Assembly (NCBI GenBank): GCA_031277015.1
Contig: JAISLZ010000108.1
Coordinates: 1 to 39,815, forward strand
Length of the DNA stretch: 39,815 nt
Direction: 5' to 3'
Source of the DNA: Eubacteriales Family XIII. Incertae Sedis bacterium
GTDB lineage: Bacteria > Bacillota > Clostridia > Peptostreptococcales > Anaerovoracaceae
Part shown: piece after piece, positions 1,933 to 17,026 of the stretch
Position numbering within the stretch: position 1 is the stretch's first letter
Layout of the letters: each line of letters begins with the position of its first letter
Made by a program: the position numbers and the translations under genes
The notes under the pieces: generated by a model
Told to the model about the DNA's origin: nothing
Database searches by the model: none
The model's input: the letters and a program-made list of their open reading frames with translations, nothing else

Positions 1933-3120
1933 CTATTTGCAGCTAACGCCTTCGCTTTCGCGTTCGATTTTTTCGTGGATGCGTATGCCACGCCGTCCGA
2001 GTTCATGGAATACGTCTGCGGGGTCGAAAGCGTACTCGGGGATGAGCAGCCCCGTGCGGCGTTCAAGCACGCGCCCGTGCGCGATGAGCTGCGCAGCTAT
2101 ACTCATCGGTATTCCCACGTTGCGCGTGTAGGCGCGCAGACCTTCCCAACCGGGTACGGAGCCGTCCGACGCCGGGTGGGTGTGGTAGAGTGTGTAACGC
2201 AGCGTCTCGTCGTCCTTGATGCCGACGACTTCAACGTGAAGGGCGTAGCCGTAAAGCTCGGTTTCCGTTCCTTCTTTTGAATGGATCAGATATTCGCTCA
2301 GGCAGTCCATGATGCCGGCTTCCGCGCCGTTCACCGTGATTTTGTCGTTGCGCAGGATGCCCCATTCGTACAGGGCGCGGATGAGGCGCATATTCTCCGG
2401 GGGCCAGGTGCCGCGCACTTCGACGAGGCGCACTCCCTTGCTCTGCAGCGATTCAGCCACGGTGTGCGTTTCGGAGTGCGGTATGATGTACTGTTCCGTC
2501 CTGCCGTACGGTTCCGGCAACAGAACTTCCCTCGGGCGTGCGAACGGCGGCACCTGTACGAACTTGCCGTTTTCAAAAACGACGCGACTTTCGAGCAACG
2601 GGTCGTATTCATACGTCGTCGTCTCCGCGATTGAACGTGAGAACGCGAATGGGCGATACGCGCCGTGGCTGATCCTGACGGTGTCTATGGCATCGAGCCG
2701 GGCTGACGCGTGCATGACCATCATCTGCGTGACGCCCGGGGTCATGCCAAACCCGGGTACAAATACGAGGCCCTTCTCCTTGAAGGCGTCAGCATAATTG
2801 TTCTCGTCGCCCATGCCGTTGAGGTTGACGGCGTGGCAGCCGGCATCGGCGATGATGGCGCTCGTCCGTCCGTTGATCCCGATCGTCGTGCCGTCCGCCA
2901 CTATGTCATAATCCTTCATTTTCTCGACAGACGCGTCGTGATCGGATATGTCGAGTTTGACAAATTTGACGCGGCCTGACCCTATCTCCGATACGACCTC
3001 GGCACCGGCTGCCTCGTCGATGTCCGCTATCGCAATCTCTTCAAAGTCGGAAAACTCCGCAAGGTCGAAGGCCGTTTCGCGGCAGATACGCCCGGCCCCT
3101 CCGAGACACATGATTTTCAT
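1933..3120 (-). CDS. saccharopine/lysine dehydrogenase-family NAD(P)-dependent oxidoreductase
   Basis: The 395-aa protein begins with a Rossmann fold (MKIMCLGGAGRIC, then an acidic strand end AIADID) typical of the saccharopine dehydrogenase NADP-binding family. That family includes saccharopine reductase and L-lysine 6-dehydrogenase, which oxidise C-N bonds. A catalytic/dimerisation domain follows with FVPGFGMTPGVTQMMVMHA. The start is the ATG at 3120, which has GGAGGT 6 bases upstream and overlaps the phnX stop as ATGA. The track start at 3135 lies inside phnX without a site. It is the last gene of the aminophosphonate operon, where a PhnW aminotransferase would be expected. I infer that it may oxidatively deaminate 2-aminoethylphosphonate to phosphonoacetaldehyde. 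The family call is firm; the substrate is a hypothesis. Confidence 0.8.
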   Translation of the reverse strand: MKIMCLGGAGRICRETAFDLAEFSDFEEIAIADIDEAAGAEVVSEIGSGRVKFVKLDISDHDASVEKMKDYDIVADGTTIGINGRTSAIIADAGCHAVNLNGMGDENNYADAFKEKGLVFVPGFGMTPGVTQMMVMHASARLDAIDTVRISHGAYRPFAFSRSIAETTTYEYDPLLESRVVFENGKFVQVPPFARPREVLLPEPYGRTEQYIIPHSETHTVAESLQSKGVRLVEVRGTWPPENMRLIRALYEWGILRNDKITVNGAEAGIMDCLSEYLIHSKEGTETELYGYALHVEVVGIKDDETLRYTLYHTHPASDGSVPGWEGLRAYTRNVGIPMSIAAQLIAHGRVLERRTGLLIPEYAFDPADVFHELGRRGIRIHEKIERESEGVSCK

Positions 3121-3908
3121 AATAAACCTCCGCATATACGCCGGATAAGGTCCGGCAATTCCGTGATGTCAGCTATGACGTGATCGGCGCCCACGTCCTT
3201 GTATCCGCGCTCCGCACCGTGCGACAGCCATGGCAGTTCCGCGGTTTTCGCAGTCTCGTATTCCGAGGCGTTCAGGCCGAGCATACTGGACCCTTTGACG
3301 ATGCCTACGGAGAGGCAGCCCGCGTTCTTCCCTTCCCATATATCGACGGCCGTATCGCCGACCTTCAGCGCCTCTCCTATCGACTGTACGCCAAGTTTCT
3401 CAAGGTTCCTCCACAGCATATAGGGATATGGACGTCCCACTCCGCCGACGTCGTCCGGACATACGAGTACATCCGGCTCGTAGCCCGCGCTCTTTGCGAG
3501 CGGCGCGACGGTGTCCATCATCGCCTTGTTGTAACCTGTGGTCGAGCCTATGGCGATACCCATTGCTCTAAGTTCCCGGACGATGCGCGGCACATCTGGC
3601 AGTGGTTCGGCGTGTTTCTCTATGACTCCGAACAGAGCCGGTTCAAAGCGCGCATAGATGCCGTCCACATCCTCCTGCACAGGAGGTGCTCCGTGTTTCA
3701 CCCGCCAGAGCTCGGCCAGGCGTCTGCCTTCGAGCATCCTCTCGATGTGCTTCCTTTTCGGCAGGCCCATCGGCGCGCGGATTTCCTCTATCGTGGGGGT
3801 GACGCCGTAGGCTTCGAACGCTATGGTGAACGCGTCCACGGGAGCAAAACTCCCAAAGTCGACCGTCGTCCCCGCCCAGTCAAAAACAACTGCGTTTATT
3901 TTATTCAT
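3117..3908 (-). CDS. phnX: phosphonoacetaldehyde hydrolase (phosphonatase)
   Basis: This haloacid dehalogenase-superfamily enzyme cleaves the C-P bond of phosphonoacetaldehyde to acetaldehyde and phosphate. The 263-aa product has the PhnX form of the nucleophile motif, VVFDWAGTTVDFGS, with Asp10 and with Ala12 where other HAD hydrolases have a second Asp. The cap motif MGLPKRKHI supplies the Schiff-base Lys51. Further HAD motifs are GSTTGYNKAMMD (motif 2) and KVGDTAVDIWEGKNAGC (motif 4). Its length is usual. The ATG overlaps the permease stop (ATGA), and the dehydrogenase start overlaps its own stop, so these genes are translationally coupled. Cytoplasmic; last step of 2-aminoethylphosphonate use for phosphate and carbon. 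Confidence 0.95.
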   Translation of the reverse strand: MNKINAVVFDWAGTTVDFGSFAPVDAFTIAFEAYGVTPTIEEIRAPMGLPKRKHIERMLEGRRLAELWRVKHGAPPVQEDVDGIYARFEPALFGVIEKHAEPLPDVPRIVRELRAMGIAIGSTTGYNKAMMDTVAPLAKSAGYEPDVLVCPDDVGGVGRPYPYMLWRNLEKLGVQSIGEALKVGDTAVDIWEGKNAGCLSVGIVKGSSMLGLNASEYETAKTAELPWLSHGAERGYKDVGADHVIADITELPDLIRRICGGLL

Positions 3909-5581
3909 ATAGCTTCCTTTCTACGGGCTCTTTTTTTCATCAACCTTATAATCAGTTCATACAGCAGCCTGACGAATACGTTTATCAGAAGGATGAGTAT
4001 GCTCATCGCCGCCGCCTGCGATATGTCGCCCGCTTCTTCCATGTGTGATATAGCGATGGAGGCGACCTTGAAGTGGGCGCTGTACAGGAAGACTACGGCA
4101 GAGACCGTGACCATCGAATTGACGAAATAGTACATGAATATCTCGAGTATCGCGGGCAGTGACAGCGGTGCGCTGACGAGCAGCAGCGTCTTGTAGCGCG
4201 GGATGTTCATGCTCTCGGAGACGCTCTCATACTCACGGTCCAGCTTTTTGAGTGCGCCGGTCGCGGTGAAGAATGGCACCGAAAAATAGTGGAGGATGTT
4301 AGAGAGGACGAGGATTGCGACCGTGCCGTAGATGAAGTTGAGCGGGTTTTCCGGGGAGTTGAAGAAAAATATGTAGGAGAGCCCTATGACCATCCCGGGC
4401 AGGGCTAGCGGCAGTACGGAGAGCAGCTTGCCGTATTTGCGTAGCGCGCCGAGACCGTTCGTCTTTTCCATCATGTAGGCATAGATGAACACGAATACGG
4501 TCCCGAATACGGCTGTGAGCAGGCTCATCTCCAGCGAGTTGAAGTAGCTGCCCATGCCGCCTGTGGACATGTTGAACGCAAAGTGCTTCAGCGTGAAGGA
4601 CAGATCAAACGGGTAGTATTTTGTCAACGCGCCGAGGAAGAGCGATGCGATCAGGGTCAGGAACGACAACGTGACAAACGCGCAGAGCGTGAAGAAAATG
4701 GCGTCGCGCGGGCGGCTTTTTTTGATGGTGAGGGTGGTCGACTTCGCGCTGATCGTGCCGGTGTTCCTGCTGTCCATGAGCCGCCCGACGATGAACGACA
4801 GCACGGCCGGTATGAGCAGCAGCGTGCCGACGACGGCGCCCATATTCATATTGAACTGCCCGGCCACCTGCTTGTATATGTCGGTCGCAAGCACGTTGTA
4901 GTTACCGCCGATGACCTTAGGCGCACCAAAGTCGGTGAAGGCGAGCGTGAAGCAGACGAAGAACACATTGACGGCCGTATATTTCACCTCAGGCAGCGCT
5001 ACGCGGAGGAATTTGGCGAGTGGAGGAACTCCCATCGAGTCGGCGGCTTCGTACAGTCGGCCGTCCGCATATTCCAACGCGACGTAGAACATGAGGAAGG
5101 CTTGGGGGAATGTGAAGATGATCTCCGATAGGATGATCCCGAAACGTCCGTAAAGTTCCGTATGGAATCCGAGGCCCGTCAGTATCCCCTGGTTGCCAAA
5201 GAGATATACGAGCCCGAGTGCGTGCACGATGGTGGGTATAAAAATAGGGATCAGGGCGGTGTATTTAAAAAAGGACTTGAACGGGATGCGTGTGCGAGCG
5301 AGGGCGTAGGCGTACAAAAAGCCGATCACGGCGCTGAATACGGTGCTGACTAGGGAGATGTCGATGGTGTTCCAAACGGAAACGGAGAGGGAGGGCGTAT
5401 CAAAATACCGCGCGTAATTCGCGAGCCCGACGAACCCTCCCGTCTTACTGAGGAACGCGTTCGAGAACAGTGAGAACAGAGGCAGGACCAGTACCACGGT
5501 GAACGCGGCGAGCATGCATGACATGACCGTGAGTTGTGGCAGGTTGACCCCGGAAAAACGATGTTTGATCCTATCAGGCAT
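3905..5581 (-). CDS. phnU: 2-aminoethylphosphonate-type ABC transporter permease (fused, two permease domains)
   Basis: The 558-aa inner-membrane protein contains two tandem binding-protein-dependent permease domains, each with about six membrane helices. EAA-type cytoplasmic loops are visible in both halves: AADSMGVPPLAKFLRVALPEVK, and SESMNIPRYKTLLLVSAPLS. This duplicated architecture is characteristic of the putative 2-aminoethylphosphonate permease group (PhnU2-like) and of related iron(III) permeases. The neighbours PhnX and PhnT/PhnS-like proteins support phosphonate. It starts 3 bp after the ATPase stop and overlaps phnX by 4 bp. The tail is basic (MKKRARRKEAI). The permease role is certain; the substrate rests on context and family resemblance. 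Confidence 0.85.
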   Translation of the reverse strand: MPDRIKHRFSGVNLPQLTVMSCMLAAFTVVLVLPLFSLFSNAFLSKTGGFVGLANYARYFDTPSLSVSVWNTIDISLVSTVFSAVIGFLYAYALARTRIPFKSFFKYTALIPIFIPTIVHALGLVYLFGNQGILTGLGFHTELYGRFGIILSEIIFTFPQAFLMFYVALEYADGRLYEAADSMGVPPLAKFLRVALPEVKYTAVNVFFVCFTLAFTDFGAPKVIGGNYNVLATDIYKQVAGQFNMNMGAVVGTLLLIPAVLSFIVGRLMDSRNTGTISAKSTTLTIKKSRPRDAIFFTLCAFVTLSFLTLIASLFLGALTKYYPFDLSFTLKHFAFNMSTGGMGSYFNSLEMSLLTAVFGTVFVFIYAYMMEKTNGLGALRKYGKLLSVLPLALPGMVIGLSYIFFFNSPENPLNFIYGTVAILVLSNILHYFSVPFFTATGALKKLDREYESVSESMNIPRYKTLLLVSAPLSLPAILEIFMYYFVNSMVTVSAVVFLYSAHFKVASIAISHMEEAGDISQAAAMSILILLINVFVRLLYELIIRLMKKRARRKEAI

Positions 5582-5584
5582 AGG

Positions 5585-6577
5585 CTATATCAATGATCCT
5601 TCCGAATATTTCATCACATTGTCTTCCGGCATGCGCAAAAATATCATGCTGTTTTCCCTGAGACTCAGGTTGTCGACGGCTTCCGACGATATGTCCACAA
5701 ATATTTCCTCCGCGCCGGGCAGTATTCCGTGAATCCGCGTGAGCGGCCCTTTGAACTCAAGCGACTGTATCTTCGCGCTGGCGTCGTAAACGTCCCTGCG
5801 GTCCGCAAGCGCGATATTTTCCGGGCGGATGGCGCAGACCTCCCCCTCCCTCTCGTAAAAATTCATCATGCCGATGAAGTTGGCGACGAAGGGCGTAGCG
5901 GGATGGTTGTAAATCTCGCGCGGCGTTCCTATCTGCTCCACCACGGCGTTGTTCATCACGATGATGCGGTCGGCCATAGTCAGGGCTTCCTCCTGGTCAT
6001 GTGTCACCATGACCGTGGTAACGCTCAGTGCACGCTGAATTTTGCGTATCTCACCGCGCAGCTTCACCCTGACCTTCGCGTCGAGCGCGGAGAGCGGCTC
6101 ATCCAGGAGCAGATAGTCTGGCGAAAGAGCTATGGCGCGCGCGAGGGCTGTGCGTTGCTGCTGCCCTCCGGAGAGTTGGCGCGGATATTTGTCCTTGTGT
6201 TCGAGCAAATCCACGAGCCGCAGGACTTCCAGCGCTTTGGCGTTGGCCTCATCCCTGGGCAATTCCTTCTTCTGCCGCAATCCGAACATTATATTGCCAT
6301 GTACAGTCATATTGGGGAATAGCGCATAGGATTGAAATACGATACCTAGGTTGCGCTTGGACGCGGGCAGTTCCGTACAGTCCCTTCCGTCCATGTATAT
6401 CCTTCCCCCGTCGGCCGTCTCCAGGCCCGCGATGATGCGGATGAGCGTAGTCTTCCCGCAGCCGCTCGGCCCGAGGATGCAAACCAGTTCGCCGCGTTCT
6501 ATGCTCACGTTGATATCGTCGAGCGCTGTCTGCCGGCCGAATTTTTTCGTGATATTCTCTACTTCCAAAAATCCCAT
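5585..6577 (-). CDS. phnT: 2-aminoethylphosphonate-type ABC transporter ATPase
   Basis: The 330-aa ATP-binding subunit energises the fused permease. Walker A is GPSGCGKTT, the ABC signature LSGGQQQR, Walker B LLLDEPLSALD with the switch His in MVTHDQEEAL. A C-terminal TOBE-like regulatory domain contains AIRPENIAL. The start is the ATG at 6577 (MGFLEVENITKKFG) with GGAGG 6 bases upstream; the track start at 6589 has none. It is related to the PotA/FbpC group, and the neighbouring phnX gives the assignment. It follows phnS after a strong intercistronic hairpin, so it is probably made at lower level than the binding protein. Confidence 0.88.
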   Translation of the reverse strand: MGFLEVENITKKFGRQTALDDINVSIERGELVCILGPSGCGKTTLIRIIAGLETADGGRIYMDGRDCTELPASKRNLGIVFQSYALFPNMTVHGNIMFGLRQKKELPRDEANAKALEVLRLVDLLEHKDKYPRQLSGGQQQRTALARAIALSPDYLLLDEPLSALDAKVRVKLRGEIRKIQRALSVTTVMVTHDQEEALTMADRIIVMNNAVVEQIGTPREIYNHPATPFVANFIGMMNFYEREGEVCAIRPENIALADRRDVYDASAKIQSLEFKGPLTRIHGILPGAEEIFVDISSEAVDNLSLRENSMIFLRMPEDNVMKYSEGSLI

Positions 6578-6643: not shown

Positions 6644-7777
6644 TTATTCTTCTGCGGCTGACTTGCCGTCATAATTCTTGATCCACTTCTCCAATATGGC
6701 CTCGCGGTTCTGCGCGGTCCAGACGAAGTCGTTGTCGATAAGCTGTTTTACCGGGTCGCTGTCGTAGCCTTCATATGTGCCATCGCCGCCGGTCGCAATG
6801 ATGGGGTAGTTCTCCTTGTAGAGCGCCATCGCCTCGTCGCTTATCGCCCAGTCGAGGAAGATATGCGATATCGGGTTGATCTCGCTTTTTTTCATCAGCG
6901 CGTTGGCTTCGAGGTCCCATCCGGAGCCTTCGGAGGGGAATATCACCTCCACGGGCGCGCCGTCCGATTTCTGGCTGATGCCCGCATACCCGAAGCTGAC
7001 GCCAAGCGCACACTCGCCCGCCGCCGCCATCTTCGCAGGCTTCGAGCCGGAGTGCACGTACTGGTCAACGTTCTCATGCAGCTTGTTCAGATAGTCCCAA
7101 CCGGCTTCGGTATCCTTGCCTTTGAGCTGGAGCAAGCCCGCTACGGTCAGGAATCCCGTGCCGGAAGAATTGGGGTTGGACATGACGATCTGGCCTTTGA
7201 GTTCCGGGCGCAGCAGGTCCTCATATGACTTGATATCCGATGGGGATAGGCCGAGTTCTTCCAGCTTGACCGTATTGACGATGAAGGCTGTCTCCCACGC
7301 GTCTATGCCTACCCAGGTCGGCGGCTGCTTGTCGGACTTAAATTCGGGAAGTATACGGTCTACGCCGGCCGGGGTATAAGGCTCGAGCATGCCCTGGTCG
7401 TCGAGCACCATCATGGACGAAGCCGCGGTGCCCCAGATCAGATCGGCCTGGGGATTGTCCTTCTCGGCCAGCAGCCTCGCGGTGATAACGCCTGTGGACT
7501 CGCGGACGATGTTCACCTTGACGTCCGGGTACTGGGCATTGAACACGGCCAGGTATTCCGTGACCTGTTCGTCCTCAAGCGCGGTGTAGACCGTTATCTC
7601 CCCTTCCGGCGTGGATGGATCAGTCTCCTGCGCGGCCTCGTCGGCGACGGGGGCGGGCGTGGCAGTCTCCTGCGCGGTGTCCTCCACGGATGGGGATGTC
7701 GCACCTCCCTCTGTACAGCCTGATAGCATCAATGCAGCGAGCAGTACGGCAATAAAGATAGTTGCGAGTTTTTGCAT
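6644..7777 (-). CDS. phnS: 2-aminoethylphosphonate-type ABC transporter substrate-binding lipoprotein
   Basis: The 377-aa product has a lipoprotein signal (IAVLLAALMLSGC) and a flexible acidic Ala/Thr/Glu/Pro-rich linker. An extracellular-binding domain of the iron/phosphonate class follows: EITVYTALEDEQVTEYLAVF, ADLIWGTAASSM and QIVMSNPNSSGTGFLTV. It is the receptor of the adjacent PhnT/permease transporter. AGGAGG lies 5-6 bases before the ATG, and a -35/-10 pair about 50-75 bases upstream marks it as the first gene of the operon. The long linker fits an organism without an outer membrane. The binding-protein role is secure; 2-aminoethylphosphonate as ligand follows from phnX and family resemblance, and iron or another phosphonate remains possible. 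Confidence 0.85.
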   Translation of the reverse strand: MQKLATIFIAVLLAALMLSGCTEGGATSPSVEDTAQETATPAPVADEAAQETDPSTPEGEITVYTALEDEQVTEYLAVFNAQYPDVKVNIVRESTGVITARLLAEKDNPQADLIWGTAASSMMVLDDQGMLEPYTPAGVDRILPEFKSDKQPPTWVGIDAWETAFIVNTVKLEELGLSPSDIKSYEDLLRPELKGQIVMSNPNSSGTGFLTVAGLLQLKGKDTEAGWDYLNKLHENVDQYVHSGSKPAKMAAAGECALGVSFGYAGISQKSDGAPVEVIFPSEGSGWDLEANALMKKSEINPISHIFLDWAISDEAMALYKENYPIIATGGDGTYEGYDSDPVKQLIDNDFVWTAQNREAILEKWIKNYDGKSAAEE

Positions 7778-7912: not shown

Positions 7913-10267
7913 TTATGAGAAATAAAATTGTTTTGAAGTAAGGATGCGCTGCATCGCAACATAGGCCTGGCCGAGGGCGACGCCGCCGTCGTTCGGGGGG
8001 ACAGCGATGTTGTAATACGGCGTGAAGCCGTCCGCATGCAGCAGGCGCAGGGTTTCTTCTATGAGTATCTTGTTCTGGAATATGCCGCCCGAGAGGCAGA
8101 TCGTGTCTACCCCGCGCTCTTCGCGCGCAGCGCGACATTCGGCGAGAATGGTGCGGCAGACGTCCATATGAAAACGCAGAGCAAATGCGTCGGCTTGATC
8201 TACGGCACGGGAGGATATGGCACGTTGTGCAGCGTTTTCGAGCATGACAGCGCACTCGCCTTCGTACCTGTTGACGTGATGGATGCCGAGCAGGGCGGAC
8301 ACGGCGTCGAATAAGCGGCCCATGCTCGATGTTCGTACAGTGTTCACCCCGCCAAGGACGGCCGCCTCAATCATGCGACGATCTGCTTCGTAATCGTTCA
8401 GAGTGTCGTTTTCTTCCGCGTAATTCAGGACGTAGGAAATATCTATGTCGAAGGTCCTCTCGCCTTTCGGACACACAGAGACATTGGACGCTCGCGTTGC
8501 TTGCACCCTGTCCTCATGTGTTTTCCCAGAGTAGTCTCGGCGGGCGCCTGCCAACCGGCAGGCCGCGGATTTCCACGCGTCCCGCATAGAAGCATCGCCG
8601 CCTATCATCTCTATGTTCCGCAGATATGAAAAGCGTTCGAACTCAGCGCATTCGCAGATCAATATTTCACCGCCCCATATCGTACCGTCCGCGCCGTAAC
8701 CCGTGCCGTCAAAGGCGACGCCGATGACGGGTCCGACAAGGCCGTGCTCGGCCATAACCGAGGCAATGTGCGCGTGATGGTGCTGCACGGCTAGCAATTG
8801 GGCGCCCTTTGTCTCCGCGTATTCCTTTGCAATTTCAGCCGTCCGATACAGTGGGTGCGCGTCGTGGGCTACCACGCAAGGCGTGATATCGAAGAACTCC
8901 TCCATGTCAGCGAGGTTCCCACCGTATACGCGTTCCGTTTCGATGTTCTCCATATCGCCGATATACTGGCTCATGTAGACGAAGCTGCCCTTTGTGAGCG
9001 CGAATGCACTCTTGAGATCCGCACCCGCCGCAAATATCCGGTCATTTTTTGACAGACTGTCAGTGCCGCGAAGGTAGATGGGTACGGGCGTCCAGCCCTT
9101 TGAGCGGCGTATGAGCTGGGGCTTTCCGTCACAGACGCGCGCTACGGAGTCGTCAATCCCGCGGACTATGCGGCGTCCGTTGTACAGTATGCCCGCGACG
9201 CGCCCGTCCCTGGCGGCGAGCGACAGCATCTCCTCGTCGTCGCGGATGATGGGGAGACCTGCTATATTGGCACTAGTCATTACGAGCGGCCCGAGCGCGG
9301 AGATGAGCATATACTGCAACGCCATGGATGGAAGGAAAGCCCCGATGAAACGGCTCGTGGACAGCACTCCCGGAGCAAGTGGCGGCGCAGCATCCTCCCC
9401 TGAGCGATGCTGTTCCAAAAGGACGATTGGCCGCTTTGGCGAAGTGAATAGGGTTTCTTCTTCGTCATTCAATTCACAATACGCGCGTACGCCCTCCACC
9501 GAGCTGAACATCACGGCGAAAGGCTTGTGCTCTCTCAATTTGATATCGCGAAGCCGCTCTACGGCATTCTCGTCAAAAGGGCTACACACGAAGTAATATC
9601 CGCCCACTCCTTTCAGAGTGATGACGCCACCGCCCCTGATCGCGCCAATCGCTTCGGATATGGCGGCGTTCCCATGTGCCACGGACGCCGCCCTGCCCGC
9701 ATGCCAGATCGCCTGAGGGCCGCATTCATGACATGACACCGTCTGGGCGTGATAACGACGGCTCGCAGGATCAGTGTATTCCGCTCCGCAAGAGGGGCAC
9801 ATGGAGAAATCCATCATGGCGGTCGTATCCCGGTCATAGGGCAGTCGTTCCATGATGGTATACCGTGGGCCGCAGTTTGTACAGCTGATGAACGGGTGCA
9901 TGTATCTCGAATTTGCGGGGTTACGAAACTCGGAGAGACATTCGCCGCACACCGCTATGTCCGCGGGTACGGCCGCTATCTCGTCCTCCGCTGTCGCGCT
10001 CGACACTATGCGAAAATCATCGAATGGTACTGTGTCTATGACTTCCCGGTCTATACGCATGATGTCCGCCATGCGCGGCTTGCCCGCCTGCACCACCTCT
10101 ACGAACTCGCCTATGCGCTCCGGCTCGTCCGTCACGATGAGCTGTACGAAGGCGCCCATATTCCGCACCTGCCCGCGCATGCGGTATTTGGCCGCAAGTC
10201 TTGAAAGCGTCGGCCTGAAGCCGACGCCCTGAACGATCCCCCAAAACGTAATAACCTCTGTTATCAT
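7913..10267 (-). CDS. hypF: carbamoyltransferase HypF, [NiFe]-hydrogenase maturation
   Basis: HypF makes the cyanide ligands of the [NiFe] active site by activating carbamoyl phosphate and transferring it to HypE. The 784-aa protein is full length, with domains in the usual order. The acylphosphatase domain has GIVQGVGFRP and the Asn of VRNMGAF. Two zinc fingers (CGECLSEF..CTNCGPRYT and CPSCGAEY..CHECGP) follow, then a YrdC-like domain (about 200-385). The Kae1-like domain has the metal-binding HHHAHIASVMAEHG, FDGTGYGADGTIWGGE and LSGGIFQNKIL. The ATG overlaps the stop of the repeat-tailed membrane protein (ATGA), putting hypF at the end of the ech operon. The other hyp genes (A-E) are not in this window. 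Confidence 0.96.
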   Translation of the reverse strand: MITEVITFWGIVQGVGFRPTLSRLAAKYRMRGQVRNMGAFVQLIVTDEPERIGEFVEVVQAGKPRMADIMRIDREVIDTVPFDDFRIVSSATAEDEIAAVPADIAVCGECLSEFRNPANSRYMHPFISCTNCGPRYTIMERLPYDRDTTAMMDFSMCPSCGAEYTDPASRRYHAQTVSCHECGPQAIWHAGRAASVAHGNAAISEAIGAIRGGGVITLKGVGGYYFVCSPFDENAVERLRDIKLREHKPFAVMFSSVEGVRAYCELNDEEETLFTSPKRPIVLLEQHRSGEDAAPPLAPGVLSTSRFIGAFLPSMALQYMLISALGPLVMTSANIAGLPIIRDDEEMLSLAARDGRVAGILYNGRRIVRGIDDSVARVCDGKPQLIRRSKGWTPVPIYLRGTDSLSKNDRIFAAGADLKSAFALTKGSFVYMSQYIGDMENIETERVYGGNLADMEEFFDITPCVVAHDAHPLYRTAEIAKEYAETKGAQLLAVQHHHAHIASVMAEHGLVGPVIGVAFDGTGYGADGTIWGGEILICECAEFERFSYLRNIEMIGGDASMRDAWKSAACRLAGARRDYSGKTHEDRVQATRASNVSVCPKGERTFDIDISYVLNYAEENDTLNDYEADRRMIEAAVLGGVNTVRTSSMGRLFDAVSALLGIHHVNRYEGECAVMLENAAQRAISSRAVDQADAFALRFHMDVCRTILAECRAAREERGVDTICLSGGIFQNKILIEETLRLLHADGFTPYYNIAVPPNDGGVALGQAYVAMQRILTSKQFYFS

Positions 10268-11394
10268 TTTTTCTTAGGATTGACGCTACGTCGAGGCTGG
10301 ACGGCAGTCCTCAATGTGTCGGCGCCATCTTTGGCTCGATTGGCCCGGCCCGCAACCTTGTCGGCGCTATCCTTGCTCCGATTGGCCCGGCCCGCGATCT
10401 TGTCGGCGCCCACTCGAGCCTTGTCGGCGCTATCCTTGCTTCGATTGGCCCGGCCCGCAATATTATCGGCGCCCACTCGAACCTTGTCGGCGCTATCCTT
10501 GCTTCGATTGGCCCGCCCCGCCCCTTCAATCGCCCGGCGATACCTATCATAGTCTTCAGCCGTGGGCACTTCGTGCTCCTTCAGGTCCTCAATGTCGGGG
10601 ATCACCCTCCTCTCCAAATATGTCGACACGGTGGGAGGCTCATATATCTCGTGGATTTCGGTTTCTTCCTCAATGAGCTCCGCCTCCATCTCCAGGCTTT
10701 CAAGCCTATCCCAACGCTCCTCCCTTTTGATCATACAATAGGTCATGAGCACGGACAGCATGAAGAAATACGAAACCACATCAAGCGCAAAAGCCACCAA
10801 ATACATGTAAAAGTCACCTTCACCGAACTTACCGTTGAGAATCGTAATAGTGTGGTTGTAGATGATAAAAATGGCCGAACCCAGATACGATAGCACGGCG
10901 ATGATCGCGGTCACCCACCCAAAACCCTGCGTGATACGCAAGGATGGCAATATTATCACAAGAAGCAAATATATGGCCGTGATAGCGGCGAGAGCGGCGT
11001 ATGGGATGAAAATGGCATACTCTATCGAGTCGTAGAGATCCTTGAATTTCTCCCCTATCGGAGATACTTTTTCATACTCCACATATATTGAAATCAGATA
11101 GATGCATAGAGGGACTATCAGAACGAGTCTCCTCAATATGTTGGTGCGGTATGGGTAATTCATGAACGCCAGCGCCGCTACCGCGCCAAACACCAAGAGG
11201 TAGATGACCGTACCCAGAGGGGAATCGCCGGCCTCAGGTACTCCGGAAGCAGTGAGCTCCATTCCCGACAGATATGCTTGCAATGCGTTCCAATAGTAGC
11301 CTAGCGGATAGCTAATAGCGATGTGAACAGCCGCAAGCGCTATCATCACGAGCGCGGAACTTTTGATTTTTCTGAAACAATAGTCGTCCATCAC
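10264..11394 (-). CDS. multi-pass membrane protein with basic tandem-repeat tail, in the ech-hypF operon
   Basis: I do not recognise this 376-aa protein. Residues about 10-225 hold roughly six hydrophobic segments (for example LLVFGAVAALAFM, LVLIVPLCIYLISIYV, FFMLSVLMTYCMI). An acidic cytoplasmic linker follows (EMEAELIEEETEIHEIYEPP), then a conserved-looking segment (PDIEDLKEHEVPTAEDYDRYRRA). The tail is highly charged and repeats the 21-residue unit AGRANRSKDSADKVRVGADN with small changes, ending RRSVNPKKK. It overlaps echF upstream and hypF downstream by 4 bases, so it is made with the hydrogenase. It may be an assembly factor, anchor or accessory ion-translocation subunit; none is proven. 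The tail resembles disordered, nucleic-acid- or protein-binding low-complexity sequence. Confidence 0.75.
   Translation of the reverse strand: MMDDYCFRKIKSSALVMIALAAVHIAISYPLGYYWNALQAYLSGMELTASGVPEAGDSPLGTVIYLLVFGAVAALAFMNYPYRTNILRRLVLIVPLCIYLISIYVEYEKVSPIGEKFKDLYDSIEYAIFIPYAALAAITAIYLLLVIILPSLRITQGFGWVTAIIAVLSYLGSAIFIIYNHTITILNGKFGEGDFYMYLVAFALDVVSYFFMLSVLMTYCMIKREERWDRLESLEMEAELIEEETEIHEIYEPPTVSTYLERRVIPDIEDLKEHEVPTAEDYDRYRRAIEGAGRANRSKDSADKVRVGADNIAGRANRSKDSADKARVGADKIAGRANRSKDSADKVAGRANRAKDGADTLRTAVQPRRSVNPKKK
10326..10522. repeat. 63-bp in-frame tandem repeat coding the protein tail
   Basis: Units begin at 10356, 10419 and 10482, exactly 63 bp apart, and are almost identical (CCTTGTCGGCGCTATCCTTG at each start). 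The last unit is partial, and a degenerate half-unit precedes the first (10326-10355). Each unit encodes 21 residues, so unit gain or loss keeps the frame. Expansion and contraction between strains is likely. Confidence 0.9.
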
Positions 11395-11930
11395 TCAATC
11401 TTGAGGCTTTTTTTCGGGCATCCCTCTATGCAGAGCCCGCACCTCGTACATTTGTCATCATCCACTTCCCACTTTTTATCTTCACGGATAACGGCGATCG
11501 CACCCTGCGGGCACTTTTTCGCACATATACCACAGAACACGCATGTGTCATCGCATTTCAGGCTACCTTCGTTTGCAGCGCTGCCCTGATCCTCTGGCTT
11601 CTCAAAGGTATCTACTATCTTATAGACATCCGGCGTCGTGTATGTTGCCTCATTAAACAGACACTTCTTAGGGCAGACATCGACGCAGCAGCTACACTGT
11701 ATGCACTGCATTCGCCCGATCGACCAGGTCTTGGCGTCCCGGTCCACCGTGATGGCATCCGTCGGACATTTCTTGCCGCAGATGCCGCACAGTATGCAGG
11801 TGTCCATGTCTACAGCGATATGCCCTCTCGTTCTCTCTTTCCATTCGCGGGGGATCACGGGGTACATGAGCGTAGCCGGCTTCCCGCCCAGGCTGCGCAT
11901 GATCATCTTTCCTATCTTCAATCCGGGCAT
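11391..11930 (-). CDS. echF: Ech-type hydrogenase ferredoxin subunit with four [4Fe-4S] motifs
   Basis: The 179-aa NuoI/EchF-like subunit carries electrons between soluble ferredoxin and the small subunit. Four complete CX2CX2CX3CP motifs are visible in order: CILCGICGKKCP, CIQCSCCVDVCP, CVFCGICAKKCP and CTRCGLCIEGCP. Classical EchF has two, so this is a doubled, polyferredoxin-like version. The N-terminus (MYPVIPREWKERTRGHI) matches the usual membrane-associated start of this family. The start is the ATG at 11930, with AGAGGTGA 5 bases upstream overlapping the echE stop; the track start at 11966 lies inside echE. The stop overlaps the next gene by 4 bases. Confidence 0.9.
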   Translation of the reverse strand: MPGLKIGKMIMRSLGGKPATLMYPVIPREWKERTRGHIAVDMDTCILCGICGKKCPTDAITVDRDAKTWSIGRMQCIQCSCCVDVCPKKCLFNEATYTTPDVYKIVDTFEKPEDQGSAANEGSLKCDDTCVFCGICAKKCPQGAIAVIREDKKWEVDDDKCTRCGLCIEGCPKKSLKIE

Positions 11931-11934
11931 ATTG

Positions 11935-13014
11935 TCACCTCTCTGTACAGCTGATACACGGGTCAATCGTCAGCACCAGCACCGGCACGTCTGCGAGGTC
12001 GCATCCCTGAAGCATCCTGACAAGCGCGGGGATGTTCGCGTTGGTAGGGGTGCGCACTCTGATGCGTTCGAGAAATTTGCTCCCGTTACCCTTGCTGTAA
12101 TAATACGCTTCACCGCGCGGCTGCTCCATACGGCCCACAAACTCTCCCGATGGATTGCCCTTCACCTTCACTTCGATGTCGCCTCCGGGCATATGCCCGG
12201 CCGCCTCTGCTATGAGGTCTATGGATTGGAACAGCTCCCTCACCCTGACCTTGCACCTGGCCATGGAGTCGCCGCCCTCCTCTACGCAGGGTTCAAATCC
12301 GAGATCCGCATACGCGCCGTGGCCATCGAGCCTGACATCCATCCTGACGCCCGAGCCCCTTGCGACGGGCCCGACGGCACAAAGCTCCTTCGCGTCTTCC
12401 GTGGACAGCACCCCGACCCCTTCGAGCCGGTTCTTCACGGACAGGTCTTCCAGGAACACGTCCGTCAGTTCCTTGAGCTCGGGGATCATGCCGCGCAGCG
12501 TCCCGGCTATCTCCGCGAGCTTCTCGTCCGGAACGTCCTTCCTGACGCCGCCGACCTTGCATACGGAGAATATCACCCTGCCGCCCGTCGTTTCCTCGAA
12601 GATATCAAGCACCGTCTCGCGCAGCCTCCAGCTGTGCATGAACAGACTCTCGAACCCGAAGCTGTCCGCAAGCAGGCCGAGCCACAGCAGATGGCTATGC
12701 ATACGGCCGAGCTCATGCCATATCGTGCGCAGGTATTCCGCACGCGGCGGGACAGTGATGCCTAGGTTGCCTTCTACCGATTTGCAATATCCCCATCCGT
12801 GCCCAAAGCTGCATATCCCGCAGATGCGTTCGATGACGTAGACCATCTCCGGCCATTCGTTCTTCTCGACGAGCTTTTCGAGGCCACGGTGTATGAACCC
12901 GATGGACGGTATCGCCTCGACGACCGTCTCGTCCTCGAGGACGAGGTCGAGATGTATAGGCTCGGGCAGGACAGGATGCTGAGGCCCGAATGGTATAATT
13001 GTACGTTTAGCCAT
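11935..13014 (-). CDS. echE: Ech-type [NiFe]-hydrogenase large (catalytic) subunit
   Basis: This 359-aa group 4 [NiFe]-hydrogenase large subunit is related to NuoD. Both nickel-binding pairs are intact: RICGIC (Cys65, Cys68) near the N-terminus and DPCISC (Cys353, Cys356) at the C-terminus. The enzyme is therefore predicted to reduce protons or oxidise H2, unlike complex I. The chain ends DPCISCTER, at the residue after which most hydrogenases are proteolytically trimmed, so no cleavable tail is encoded. The N-terminus KRTIIPFGPQHPVLPEPIHL is typical. The gene starts at the base where the echD stop begins and ends 4 bases before echF. Confidence 0.95.
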   Translation of the reverse strand: MAKRTIIPFGPQHPVLPEPIHLDLVLEDETVVEAIPSIGFIHRGLEKLVEKNEWPEMVYVIERICGICSFGHGWGYCKSVEGNLGITVPPRAEYLRTIWHELGRMHSHLLWLGLLADSFGFESLFMHSWRLRETVLDIFEETTGGRVIFSVCKVGGVRKDVPDEKLAEIAGTLRGMIPELKELTDVFLEDLSVKNRLEGVGVLSTEDAKELCAVGPVARGSGVRMDVRLDGHGAYADLGFEPCVEEGGDSMARCKVRVRELFQSIDLIAEAAGHMPGGDIEVKVKGNPSGEFVGRMEQPRGEAYYYSKGNGSKFLERIRVRTPTNANIPALVRMLQGCDLADVPVLVLTIDPCISCTER

Positions 13015-13481
13015 TACTTTCCTTTCCTCTCCTTATCTACCTTATCTTTCTTATTCTCTTTATCTGTCTTCGCTGACTTCAATTCTTTGCCTGACGCTTC
13101 CCTCGGCTTCGCGCCGCGATCTTCCACGGGATTCCACGGCGTCTCGGACGCTATTTTGAAGAAATGCCCGCCGTAATCGAGCGCAAGGTTTCTGAATGTG
13201 ATGCCAAAAAGGTCATGCATCTCGTTCTCGTATATGAATGCTGGCCAATATATGCCCGATATGCTATGGATCTCGGGATCTTTGTCCTCAATGCTGACCT
13301 TGAAGTTCTTCAACGTTTCGTCCTTTTCAAACGAGTACAGTATCTCCACAGCCCCCTCGGCTTTTGTGGCGCACGCCTGGCCAAGGCGGTAGCCTTCCGA
13401 TTTGATGTCCGATACGGACTCGAGCAGATGGGAAGCCTCTATCGTCACTATATCCTGTATCAAGTCTTTTCTCTCGCTCAT
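13014..13481 (-). CDS. echD: Ech-type hydrogenase NuoC-like subunit
   Basis: The 155-aa protein corresponds to the 30-kDa (NuoC) subunit that braces the large and small subunits. The family signature is YENEMHDLFGITF. The C-terminal 40 residues are unusually rich in Lys, Asp and Glu (KTDKENKKDKVDKERKGK) and extend past the conserved fold, reading like a disordered tail. The start is the ATG at 13481 with AGGAGG 7 bases upstream; the track uses a GTG one codon earlier. It shares one base with the echC stop (TGATG). Confidence 0.9.
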   Translation of the reverse strand: MSERKDLIQDIVTIEASHLLESVSDIKSEGYRLGQACATKAEGAVEILYSFEKDETLKNFKVSIEDKDPEIHSISGIYWPAFIYENEMHDLFGITFRNLALDYGGHFFKIASETPWNPVEDRGAKPREASGKELKSAKTDKENKKDKVDKERKGK

Positions 13482-14107
13482 CACGCTTCCTCCTTTCCGC
13501 TCCCAGAGTTCTTGCTGTCATCAGCGCTCTCGTCATCGGGCTGCGTACCGAAATATTTCACCTCAATGTCGTCACCGGGAAGAACAAGCTCCTCAAGCGG
13601 TTCGGGTGGAGCCCCGTCGGGAAGGCCCATCCTGTCCAGATTCGCAACCGCTTCAGCCGCGGTAGTCGTCTCATGCGGACGTTTCTCCATCGCTTTCTTC
13701 TTCTCGTCCAGCGCTCCGAGCGCACGTACGACACCATCGATGATAGCCTCTGGCCGCGCGGCGCAACCTGGGACGTAGACGTCTACGGGTATGACCGTGT
13801 CGACGCCCCCCATTATATTGTAGCAATCCTTGAACACGCCGCCCGATGTCGCGCATATCCCTATGGCCGCGACTGCCTTCGGTTCGGGCATCTGTTCGTA
13901 TATCTGCTTGACGACGCTGACGTTCTGTTCGTTGATGGACCCCGTGATCAGGAATATGTCGGCGTGCTTCGGGTTGCCCGTGTTGATGATGCCGAACCGT
14001 TCGACGTCGTACATGGGAGTGAGGCACGCGAGCACCTCAATGTCACAGCCGTTGCAGCTTGACCCATCGTAATGTATGATCCATGGACTCTTTGTGATGT
14101 ATGACAT
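13481..14107 (-). CDS. echC: Ech-type hydrogenase small subunit (NuoB-like)
   Basis: The 208-aa subunit binds the proximal [4Fe-4S] cluster next to the [NiFe] site. The four expected cysteines are seen in SSCNGCDIE, GICATSGG and VPGCAARPE. About 55 C-terminal residues (ELVLPGDDIEVKYFG..DDSKNSGSGKEEA) form an acidic extension beyond the NuoB core. The start is the ATG at 14107 with AGGAGG 6-7 bases upstream; the track start at 14170 lies in the echB 3' end. It follows echB after 13 bases and is coupled to echD. Confidence 0.94.
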   Translation of the reverse strand: MSYITKSPWIIHYDGSSCNGCDIEVLACLTPMYDVERFGIINTGNPKHADIFLITGSINEQNVSVVKQIYEQMPEPKAVAAIGICATSGGVFKDCYNIMGGVDTVIPVDVYVPGCAARPEAIIDGVVRALGALDEKKKAMEKRPHETTTAAEAVANLDRMGLPDGAPPEPLEELVLPGDDIEVKYFGTQPDDESADDSKNSGSGKEEA

Positions 14108-14120
14108 ATCGCGCCTCCTT

Positions 14121-15020
14121 CTACATAAGTCCCCTGAGATAGTATAGCAGTATGAGGTTGGCTGCGCCAAATGTGATCGTCACAAGCCAGCTCGATTTGA
14201 GCGCGAACTGCCATTTCATCCTCGCGAACGCATTGTCGATAAACACTTCGAGGAAGAAAGCCAGCAGCGCGACGGCGGCGCCTATGACGGCCATGTACCA
14301 CGTTCCATTCGGGAAGAACAGGAATACGAAGCCGAGCAGGAACACATTCTCATACCAATGCGCTATCTCGATGAGGGCGAGAGTCCTCCCCGAAAATTCT
14401 GTCGTCACACCCTTGACCAGTTCCTGATGCGCGTGATGCGAAAGGGAAAGGTCAAAGGGCGACTTGCGGAATTTCATCGTGAGAATGAAAAGATAACCGA
14501 TAAATATTCCGACGAGATACTGTAACGGTATGCCTCCGCTATCGAGACCTACACCCGCCACTATGTCTCCTATGCGGAAGCTGCCTGTCGTCATATACAG
14601 GCCGACCGCCGTTAGCAGCACCATGGGCTCGTACGCCATCATCTGTAAAAGCTCCCGCTCCGCGCCTATCTGCGCGTAGGGTGAGTTGGACGAATAGGCG
14701 CCTATCACGAGGAACAGGTTGGCCGTCGTGAGCGTAAAGATGACGAGCAGCAGGTTCTCCCCGAAGAAAAAGAGGCCGCCCGTAATGATGATGAAAATGA
14801 GAAAGCACATCACGTAGAAGTCCTGCCCGCTATTGACGGTCACAGGCTCCTTCTCCATGAGTTTGCGGACATCGTAGAAGGGCTGCATTATCGGCGGACC
14901 GAATCTGCCCTGCATGCGCGCGGTGACCTTCCTGTCTATACCTGAGAGCAGCCCCCCTACGAACGGGCCGGCTATAAGGTAGCAGACGAGGCCGATCACG
15001 GCATAAATACTGACTGGCAT
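14121..15020 (-). CDS. echB: Ech-type hydrogenase membrane subunit (NuoH-like)
   Basis: The 299-aa integral membrane protein anchors the hydrogenase arm to the membrane, as NuoH does in complex I. It has about eight helices, the quinone-site-like loop GRFGPPIMQPFYDVRKL near the N-terminus and the acidic loop GAERELLQMMAYEP, both signatures of this family. MKFRKSPFDLSLSHHAHQEL matches the conserved charged loop of EchB. The start is the ATG at 15020, overlapping the echA stop as TGATG with GGGGGT upstream; the track start at 15167 is inside echA. Confidence 0.94.
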   Translation of the reverse strand: MPVSIYAVIGLVCYLIAGPFVGGLLSGIDRKVTARMQGRFGPPIMQPFYDVRKLMEKEPVTVNSGQDFYVMCFLIFIIITGGLFFFGENLLLVIFTLTTANLFLVIGAYSSNSPYAQIGAERELLQMMAYEPMVLLTAVGLYMTTGSFRIGDIVAGVGLDSGGIPLQYLVGIFIGYLFILTMKFRKSPFDLSLSHHAHQELVKGVTTEFSGRTLALIEIAHWYENVFLLGFVFLFFPNGTWYMAVIGAAVALLAFFLEVFIDNAFARMKWQFALKSSWLVTITFGAANLILLYYLRGLM

Positions 15021-17026
15021 CAGAACGTACCCCCTCCCTGTATATACCTGAACACCGATATTGCGAGCGAACCCGCGAACGAGAACGAAACCGCAAATAT
15101 GACGCAGGTCGTGACAAGCCCAACGCGGTTCATTAGCTTCTCGCCGAACACGCCTTCCATATACCAATTGCGCAGGCTCACAGGGATATCCTTGCCCATC
15201 GAGCCCGCAAAGGTCAGGTTGTCACCCTCGTTCGCACCGCCCATGTAAAGGGGGACGACGCGCTTGCGCGTGCGCCCGTAGAATAGGAGCGGCAGCACGA
15301 GGATAGTAGCGGCGAGTACAACCATGATGATCATGTTGTCGCCCGACAGCGCGACGGCTGTAGCGTCAGTGATGCCATCGAAGAAGTGAGTGACGAACGG
15401 AACTATGACGCTGCCGGAGAACAGAGGGAACGAGAGGGATATGATGATGACGAGCACAATGTGCCCCGTCAGCACGAACCACTCCTCACCGTGCACCTTG
15501 TCCTGTATGTTCTGCCTGTTTGCCACTATTGCCGTGAGCTTGCCGAGCCATTTACCCCAGTAGAACACGGTGACGGCGGATCCGAATACTATCATGAGCA
15601 CGACCCACACCCCACCCGCGTCGACGAACGACTGGAGGGCCGCCCACTTGGATATGAGCATCCCGAACGGCGCGAGGAACATCGCGGCTATACCGATAAT
15701 CATGTATACAGCCAGCCTCGGCATCCTGCCGAACAGCCCGTCCATATCCTCTATATCTCGACTGCCTATGTTGTGCTCGGCCGTACCTACGCTGAGAAAG
15801 AGCAGTGACTTCGTGACCGCGTGGAAGATAATGAGCATGATTGCGGCCCATACGCCCTCCGGAGTGCCTATGCCTGCGCACGCGACGATGAGGCCGAGGT
15901 TGGCAATAGTAGAATACGCGAGGACACGCTTCGCATTGCTCTGCGTGACCGCCGCGAACGATGCAAGGACGAATGTGAGCCCCCCGACCATCATAACCAT
16001 GAATCCCGGCCCACCTATGTCCATGATGCCCTGCACTCCGAGCAGGGGCGAGAGCTTCACGATGAGGAATACGCCCGCCTTGACCATCGTCGACGAGTGT
16101 AGCAAAGCCGACGTAGGCGTCGGCGCGACCATCGCCCCGAGCAGCCAACTGTTGAACGGCATCTGCGCGGCCTTCGTAATGCCCGCAAAACACAGCAGCA
16201 TGACGACCGCGTTCACGATATAGTCAGGCTGGCCCAGAGCCTTCGCCGATGAGCCGAGCTCAAGCAGCCGGTCTATCTCAAGCGTCGCGTAGGTGCCGCC
16301 GAGCAGCACGATGGCGAGCACGAAGGCGAGCCCACCAAGCAAGTTCATGATGAGCGCCCGGAAAGAATTCCTTACAGCCTCCTCTGTCTTCGTATACCCT
16401 ATCAGGAAGAACGAACAGAGCGTCGTGATCTCCCAGAAGAAGTACATATATATCAGGTTGTTTGAGAGGACGATGCCAAACATCGCGGCCAGGAAGATGA
16501 ACATGAGGAAGAAAAACCACCAACGCCTGTCAGGGCCCTCAGGGTGATGGCTCTGAAAGTCTTTCATGTAACCGACAGCATATACGCATATGAGCGTACC
16601 TATGATGCCGATGATAATGACCATTATAAGCGCAAAATGATCTATGCCTATGTTGTTCTTCACCTCGATGCTGTGACCCGCGTGCAACTCAAACCATATG
16701 AGGATAAAACATTGCACCGGTGCAAGTATGCACGCCAACACTTTTTTGTACTTGATCCCGAGGATGAAGATAACTACGGCTAGCGCCGCCTCTATCCCCA
16801 TCATCACGTATCCCGTGGCTTCCGCCGACTCCGTCCCGCCTGACCACAGCATGTTCGGTCCAACGTCAGACCATATACCCTGCCTGACCGCCAAAATCAC
16901 CGAAAAGACGGCCGTGGCCGCGGCTCCGATGAAAATCACCGGGCCACGCGCCACGTCACTCCTGATGAACAGCAGAGCCAAAGCGATCACAAGTGGGATC
17001 AGTACGAGAAAAATTATCGTTTCCAC
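15020..17026 (-). CDS. echA: Ech-type hydrogenase antiporter-like membrane subunit (NuoL-like)
   Basis: The 668-aa protein with some 14-16 hydrophobic segments belongs to the NuoL/MrpA antiporter family and provides the ion-translocating channel. Conserved features include the charged helix YMYFFWEITTLCSFFLIGYT with its Glu, the Lys-containing MPFNSWLLGAM and AHTVAESLQ-free central region ALLHSSTMVKAGVFLI. The start is GTG at 17026 with GGAAGGGA upstream, 23 bases after the permease stop, so both are likely on one message. It is the first gene of the ech block echABCDEF. Confidence 0.92.
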   Translation of the reverse strand: METIIFLVLIPLVIALALLFIRSDVARGPVIFIGAAATAVFSVILAVRQGIWSDVGPNMLWSGGTESAEATGYVMMGIEAALAVVIFILGIKYKKVLACILAPVQCFILIWFELHAGHSIEVKNNIGIDHFALIMVIIIGIIGTLICVYAVGYMKDFQSHHPEGPDRRWWFFFLMFIFLAAMFGIVLSNNLIYMYFFWEITTLCSFFLIGYTKTEEAVRNSFRALIMNLLGGLAFVLAIVLLGGTYATLEIDRLLELGSSAKALGQPDYIVNAVVMLLCFAGITKAAQMPFNSWLLGAMVAPTPTSALLHSSTMVKAGVFLIVKLSPLLGVQGIMDIGGPGFMVMMVGGLTFVLASFAAVTQSNAKRVLAYSTIANLGLIVACAGIGTPEGVWAAIMLIIFHAVTKSLLFLSVGTAEHNIGSRDIEDMDGLFGRMPRLAVYMIIGIAAMFLAPFGMLISKWAALQSFVDAGGVWVVLMIVFGSAVTVFYWGKWLGKLTAIVANRQNIQDKVHGEEWFVLTGHIVLVIIISLSFPLFSGSVIVPFVTHFFDGITDATAVALSGDNMIIMVVLAATILVLPLLFYGRTRKRVVPLYMGGANEGDNLTFAGSMGKDIPVSLRNWYMEGVFGEKLMNRVGLVTTCVIFAVSFSFAGSLAISVFRYIQGGGTF

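Follow-up and report, generated by a model that had tools for sequence, protein, structure and literature searches.

The window analyzed here is a stretch of 39,815 nucleotides from a bacterium of Eubacteriales Family XIII. Incertae Sedis, whose genome is available as a 1.98-Mb draft of 117 contigs that is 87% complete. A phosphonate operon is encoded on its minus strand. It begins with phnS2 (positions 6644 to 7777), coding for a PhnS2-type aminoethylphosphonate substrate-binding lipoprotein that scored 419 bits to TIGR03261, above the cut-off of 392.75. The PhnT2-type ABC ATPase encoded next (phnT2, 5585 to 6577) reached 432.8 bits to TIGR03265, its top family, slightly below the cut-off of 457.7. 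The PhnU2-type permease (phnU2, 3905 to 5581) scored 665 bits to TIGR03262, above the cut-off of 593. These genes are followed by phnX, for phosphonoacetaldehyde hydrolase (3117 to 3908), and by a gene for a saccharopine-dehydrogenase-family, NAD-type dehydrogenase of 395 amino acids (1933 to 3120), here referred to as SDH. We did not find Rfam elements, including riboswitches, near the operon, and promoter and terminator scans gave no more than shuffled sequence does. Directly upstream of phnS2 is hypF, followed on the same strand by genes that resemble those for subunits of a membrane-bound hydrogenase or complex I-like enzyme (window positions 7913 to 17026). On the other side of the operon, on the plus strand, a 177-amino-acid open reading frame (ORF; 1308 to 1841) with an N-terminal signal-like stretch, a C-terminal membrane anchor and no Pfam or NCBIfam match borders an ORF resembling an ECF sigma factor (743 to 1180).

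The phnX product scored 320 bits to TIGR01422, well above the cut-off of 220, and alignment to the solved PhnX structure 2iof revealed that the nucleophile motif FDWAGT and the lysine of MGLPK are kept. With the cut-off passed and both the catalytic aspartate and lysine present, the gene at 3117 to 3908 codes for a true phosphonatase. It overlaps the stop codon of the phnU2 permease gene by 4 bases. In the ORF reading, the SDH start codon lies within an ATGA that overlaps the phnX stop codon (3117 to 3120), by which the two genes are translationally coupled. An initial sequence-only reading of this DNA had described an aminoethylphosphonate (AEP)-type importer together with phnX, and a saccharopine dehydrogenase relative joined to phnX by the ATGA overlap; both descriptions were borne out.

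SDH passed the Pfam gathering scores for PF03435 (42.2 versus 25.1 bits) and PF16653 (56.3 versus 31 bits), which places it in the saccharopine dehydrogenase superfamily, with an NADP-binding and a C-terminal domain. It did not reach the cut-off of any NCBIfam equivalog; the best was carboxynorspermidine synthase NF043000, at 21.4 bits versus 800. An AlphaFold2 model based on an alignment of 33 sequences had a mean pLDDT of 90.5 and a pTM of 0.90. The carboxyspermidine/carboxynorspermidine dehydrogenases (8deb, 8h4z) provided the closest PDB folds (TM of about 0.81 to 0.83) as well as the top PDB sequence matches, followed in fold by L-lysine 6-dehydrogenase (3abi; TM 0.73/0.81) and saccharopine reductases. 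No functionally characterized enzyme, carboxyspermidine dehydrogenase included, was more than about 20% identical to SDH, and the transfer of a substrate to SDH is therefore weak. Gene context also differs, SDH lying among phosphonate genes and carboxyspermidine dehydrogenase in polyamine operons.

The active site was compared with that of the Bacteroides fragilis carboxyspermidine dehydrogenase, in which His228 is the proposed base, hydrogen bonded to Glu230 and onward to Ser144, and a role in positioning the aldehyde substrate has been proposed for Glu188 and Glu229 (PMC10413350). His228, Glu230 and Ser144 map to H215, E217 and T131 of SDH, all three invariant in the alignment, so that the catalytic histidine and the proton-relay glutamate occur in both enzymes. 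In contrast, the counterparts of Glu188 and Glu229 are lost, being P174 and S216. The complete His228-Glu229-Glu230 triad is thus not found in SDH, where the corresponding codons, for H215-S216-E217, lie at 2470 to 2478 and the middle residue is serine or alanine across the 33 aligned sequences. Judging from these residues, SDH has retained the proton machinery and given up the substrate-positioning acids. Four basic residues, R195, H313, H315 and R329, are invariant in SDH but missing both in carboxyspermidine dehydrogenase and in the distant paralogue described below, and are candidates for holding the phosphonate. An aspartate, D33 (codon at 3022 to 3024), is likewise invariant and stands where the second Rossmann strand ends. 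An acidic residue at this position is expected to favor NAD over NADP; D33 therefore suggests that NAD, rather than NADP, is the cofactor of SDH.

The sequence-only reading had taken L-lysine 6-dehydrogenase as its model for the chemistry of SDH. Lysine 6-dehydrogenase is an NAD-dependent amine dehydrogenase and shares the fold of SDH, and to this extent the analogy stands. However, 3abi gave no sequence match to SDH even at an E value of 10 or less, and the His-Glu-Glu motif, of which SDH keeps the histidine and the second glutamate, is absent from both saccharopine reductase and lysine 6-dehydrogenase (PMC10413350). In its fold and catalytic residues, SDH resembles carboxyspermidine dehydrogenase, which acts on secondary amines, more closely than it does lysine 6-dehydrogenase, and the latter is the weaker analogy. 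Family and fold nevertheless support the broader claim of that reading, namely, that SDH is an NAD-type amine dehydrogenase that could make the substrate of PhnX without oxygen or a transaminase.

The same reading held that SDH takes the place of the missing PhnW, the AEP:pyruvate transaminase that supplies PhnX with phosphonoacetaldehyde. The operon indeed carries no phnW, and tblastn with the PhnW of a relative as the query revealed no remnant of one anywhere in the window. The absence does not extend to the organism. The genome search that the reading had proposed found a PhnW-AepZ transaminase gene at the very end of another contig (C47:25-1146, minus strand; 462.6 bits versus a cut-off of 360.8), a result that counts in part against the replacement. 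Its neighbors encode a major facilitator superfamily (MFS) transporter of the organophosphate antiporter (OPA) family, the family of the proven AEP permease AepP (PMC8316502), and a PhnX-like hydrolase that scored about 150 bits to TIGR01422 and retains the aspartate and lysine catalytic motifs. Since contig C47 holds phnW, the MFS transporter and the PhnX-like hydrolase in addition to the operon in the window, this genome contains two separate aminophosphonate gene sets. Modules of the second type, with a diverged PhnX-like protein, an AepP-type MFS transporter and a PhnW-AepZ transaminase, were seen at L116 (C47:25-4943), L117, L118 and L121; PbfA joins the module in L118, and a copy of SDH joins it in L121.

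We then surveyed 85,462 genomes for SDH; the query was the window protein aligned with a relative from the same genus. The scan required one of two short conserved motifs and so misses more distant members. It returned 41 loci with best-segment identities of 52 to 76%, making 42 with the window. The hosts were Paenibacillus, Brevibacillus, Bacillus and relatives, Christensenella, other Clostridia, and metagenome-assembled genomes (MAGs) of a Desulfovibrio and a member of the Spirochaetales. With the window counted, 40 of the 42 loci had phn genes (phnX, phnW or the importer) within about 8 kb: phnX in 36, phnW in 35 and the importer in 34. Typically, the genes stood in the order X-W-SDH or X-SDH on a single strand, either overlapping or separated by a few to about 150 bases, and phnW often directly adjoined SDH in the 35 loci carrying both. 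In Paenibacillus the order was mostly T2-U2-X-W-SDH-DeoR-S2, with at most about 75 bases between phnW and SDH. L031, the closest relative of the window operon (75% identical across the aligned region), shares its gene order and continues with phnW directly after SDH; the PhnW of L031 scored 560 bits to TIGR02326. SDH was paired with two unrelated importers, the ABC transporter PhnSTU2 and, in the Desulfovibrio MAG (L121 and L122), an OPA-family MFS transporter accompanied by a PhnX-like protein. Variants of the arrangement were also found: a PhnX-like gene, a permease gene and SDH without phnW at L121; an importer and SDH, with neither phnX nor phnW adjoining, in three Clostridia (L064, L067 and L071); and SDH distant from the phn genes in two Brevibacillus genomes with phnX and phnW elsewhere (L034 and L037). 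Among 61 relatives of the window, G052 carries phnX without SDH, so phnX does not always bring SDH with it. A distant paralogue (27% identity; L006) in genome G012 had none of the searched phn markers within 14 kb (L123) and, owing to this lack, was left out of functional inference.

Among 40 Brevibacillales genomes, phnX was present in 18, and phnW above the cut-off occurred in the identical 18. SDH was found in 17 of these 18 genomes and was missing from all 22 others (Fisher P = 2 × 10^-10, an optimistic value, as the genomes share ancestry). The association of SDH with phn genes far exceeds chance, which supports the proposal that the function of SDH is linked to PhnX and to the uptake of aminophosphonates. 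The replacement of PhnW, on the other hand, was not borne out. All seven genomes that lack phnW at the SDH locus carry it elsewhere, so that phnW is present in all 42 SDH genomes; whole-genome searches covered 10 genomes, in three of which the transaminase was of the PhnW-AepZ type and below the TIGR02326 cut-off. The survey of SDH loci thus confirmed the predicted co-occurrence with phnX but not the accompanying absence of phnW, and a stand-in role for SDH is rejected. Because phnW occurs in every SDH genome, and given the Brevibacillales co-occurrence, SDH is a recurrent, phylogenetically broad accessory of the phosphonatase pathway, an add-on to PhnWX and no substitute. PhnW is a pyridoxal phosphate (PLP) enzyme, and the two coexist.

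Several other features of these clusters were observed. The Desulfovibrio MAG combines glutamate dehydrogenase, the OPA-type MFS transporter, PhnW-AepZ and SDH in one cluster (L122:8870-14078) and carries SDH once more, as an 85% identical copy, on a different contig (L121). The Bacillus piscicola cluster ends with another, diverged copy of SDH (L041:15881-17077, minus strand), which lies next to its own phnS2-type gene and has GFGAGPG in place of the GFGMTPG of the others. A single 648-amino-acid ORF (L043:6032-7978, plus strand) joins PhnX to PhnW, and more fusions are hinted at in G101, G012 and G048, where PhnX lies within long open frames of 668, 652 and 620 amino acids, respectively. In Bacillus, Peribacillus and Brevibacillus, phosphonatase clusters also contain genes for microcompartment shell proteins, for an acetylating acetaldehyde dehydrogenase of the EutE type (641 bits to TIGR02518), for PduL and for an Eut-like protein (L041:10108-14221, L044:7884-11824 and L047:10020-13827; also L035, L045, L046, L048, L066, L068 and L070), and look as if a microcompartment handled the acetaldehyde produced by PhnX.

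Other enzymes are known from AEP gene clusters. PbfB, PbfC and PbfD are, like SDH, amine oxidoreductases encoded recurrently in phnWX clusters; they act on N-methyl-AEP, and SDH would share their product, phosphonoacetaldehyde. However, they have an unrelated fold (PF01266) and use FAD (PMC10590968). PbfC and PbfD oxidize N-methyl-AEP, which PhnW cannot process (PMC10590968, PMC12366243), and genes of this type can also accompany phnX on its own. PbfB is found chiefly in beta- and gammaproteobacteria, and PbfC turns up only occasionally in Terrabacteria (PMC10590968). PbfF, an NAD-dependent HAEP racemase, resembles SDH in being an NAD-type accessory enzyme found through AEP-cluster context, but it belongs to another family (pfam02826), is linked to pbfA and is alphaproteobacterial (PMC12366243). 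An identity of SDH with PbfA, PbfB, PbfC, PbfD or PbfF was rejected, as those proteins belong to other families. PbfA itself is encoded in some SDH loci (L048, L058, L059 and L063); the clusters of Pontibacillus and Salibacterium carry its gene. As for room for FAD amine oxidoreductase genes inside the clusters, unassigned stretches of more than 600 bases between the labelled genes were present only in L037, L042, L045 and L070. A search of the openly accessible literature returned no paper that connects any relative of saccharopine dehydrogenase with the degradation of phosphonates. The superfamily and the pathway were already known; the recurrent pairing of SDH with phn genes, and its likely role, appear to be new.

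From the gene order, association, conservation and fold, we infer a reaction, cofactor and substrate for SDH. SDH probably makes phosphonoacetaldehyde from some aminoethylphosphonate. According to our model, PhnSTU2 would import an aminoethylphosphonate-type amine, SDH would oxidize its C-N bond to an imine with NAD+ and without oxygen, the imine would hydrolyze to phosphonoacetaldehyde, and PhnX would cleave the latter to acetaldehyde and phosphate. The substrate may well be an N-substituted AEP. With PhnW present in all SDH genomes and PbfA in some of the loci, AEP and R-HAEP are already served by other enzymes in these cases. N-methyl-AEP is favored because PhnW, which acts on AEP, accompanies SDH in every genome; because the catalytic motif of SDH is that of a secondary-amine enzyme; because PbfC and PbfD, the other amine oxidoreductases of AEP clusters, act on N-methyl-AEP; and because PbfB and PbfC occur mainly outside the Gram-positive groups that have SDH. 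With this substrate, the products would be phosphonoacetaldehyde, methylamine and NADH. An NAD+-dependent amine dehydrogenase that opens an accessory entry into the phosphonatase pathway, with N-methyl-AEP as its first-choice substrate, is a proposal for and against which the chances seem to us evenly balanced. The low identity to characterized enzymes speaks against it, as do the Clostridia loci L064, L067 and L071 and the Brevibacillus loci L034 and L037. If it holds, SDH would be a Bacillota counterpart of the FAD enzymes PbfB, PbfC and PbfD.

Three other readings were weighed against this one. SDH could oxidize plain AEP, a primary amine, in the manner of lysine 6-dehydrogenase, as a transaminase-free route beside PhnW or when PhnW is not expressed. 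Such an oxygen-independent route would fit anaerobes, the 3abi fold matches, and neither the window operon nor L121 holds phnW; the window operon is where this reading would apply above all. Yet the presence of phnW in all SDH genomes, usually adjacent to SDH, and a catalytic motif of the carboxyspermidine dehydrogenase type make plain AEP a rather unlikely substrate overall. Alternatively, SDH might act as an opine-type enzyme that, like saccharopine reductase, cleaves conjugates in which a 2-phosphonoethyl group is carried on the nitrogen of an amino acid or amine, releasing phosphonoacetaldehyde and the amino acid. Chemistry of this kind is native to the carboxyspermidine dehydrogenase/saccharopine reductase fold (PMC10413350), but the acids that position the amino acid aldehyde in carboxyspermidine dehydrogenase are lost in SDH. 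Moreover, we know of no natural N-(2-phosphonoethyl) amino acid, and we consider conjugate splitting improbable. If it did occur, it would imply that Gram-positive bacteria and gut anaerobes draw on a pool of natural phosphonates that has gone unrecognized. A role in support of PhnW, for example, in recycling the alanine formed or in acting on other phosphonates, such as (S)-2-amino-1-hydroxyethylphosphonate or phosphonoalanine, would agree with PhnW being the usual neighbor of SDH and with the glutamate dehydrogenase gene within the L122 cluster. We doubt it strongly, as the substrates of the saccharopine dehydrogenase family are terminal or secondary amines and not alanine, and as L121 has SDH with a PhnX-like hydrolase and a permease but no PhnW.

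Both AEP and N-methyl-AEP occur widely as natural phosphonates. Those enzymes already known to channel N-methyl-AEP into the phosphonatase pathway depend on FAD, and PbfB and PbfC have been recorded mainly outside Gram-positive bacteria. The present results correct the view of SDH as a stand-in for PhnW and define a protein family, present in 42 genomes, that is amenable to a simple assay. As an accessory for N-methyl-AEP, an NAD-type enzyme conserved among the phosphonate genes of Paenibacillus, Brevibacillus, Bacillus and gut anaerobes would close the gap left by the FAD enzymes in an oxygen-independent manner.
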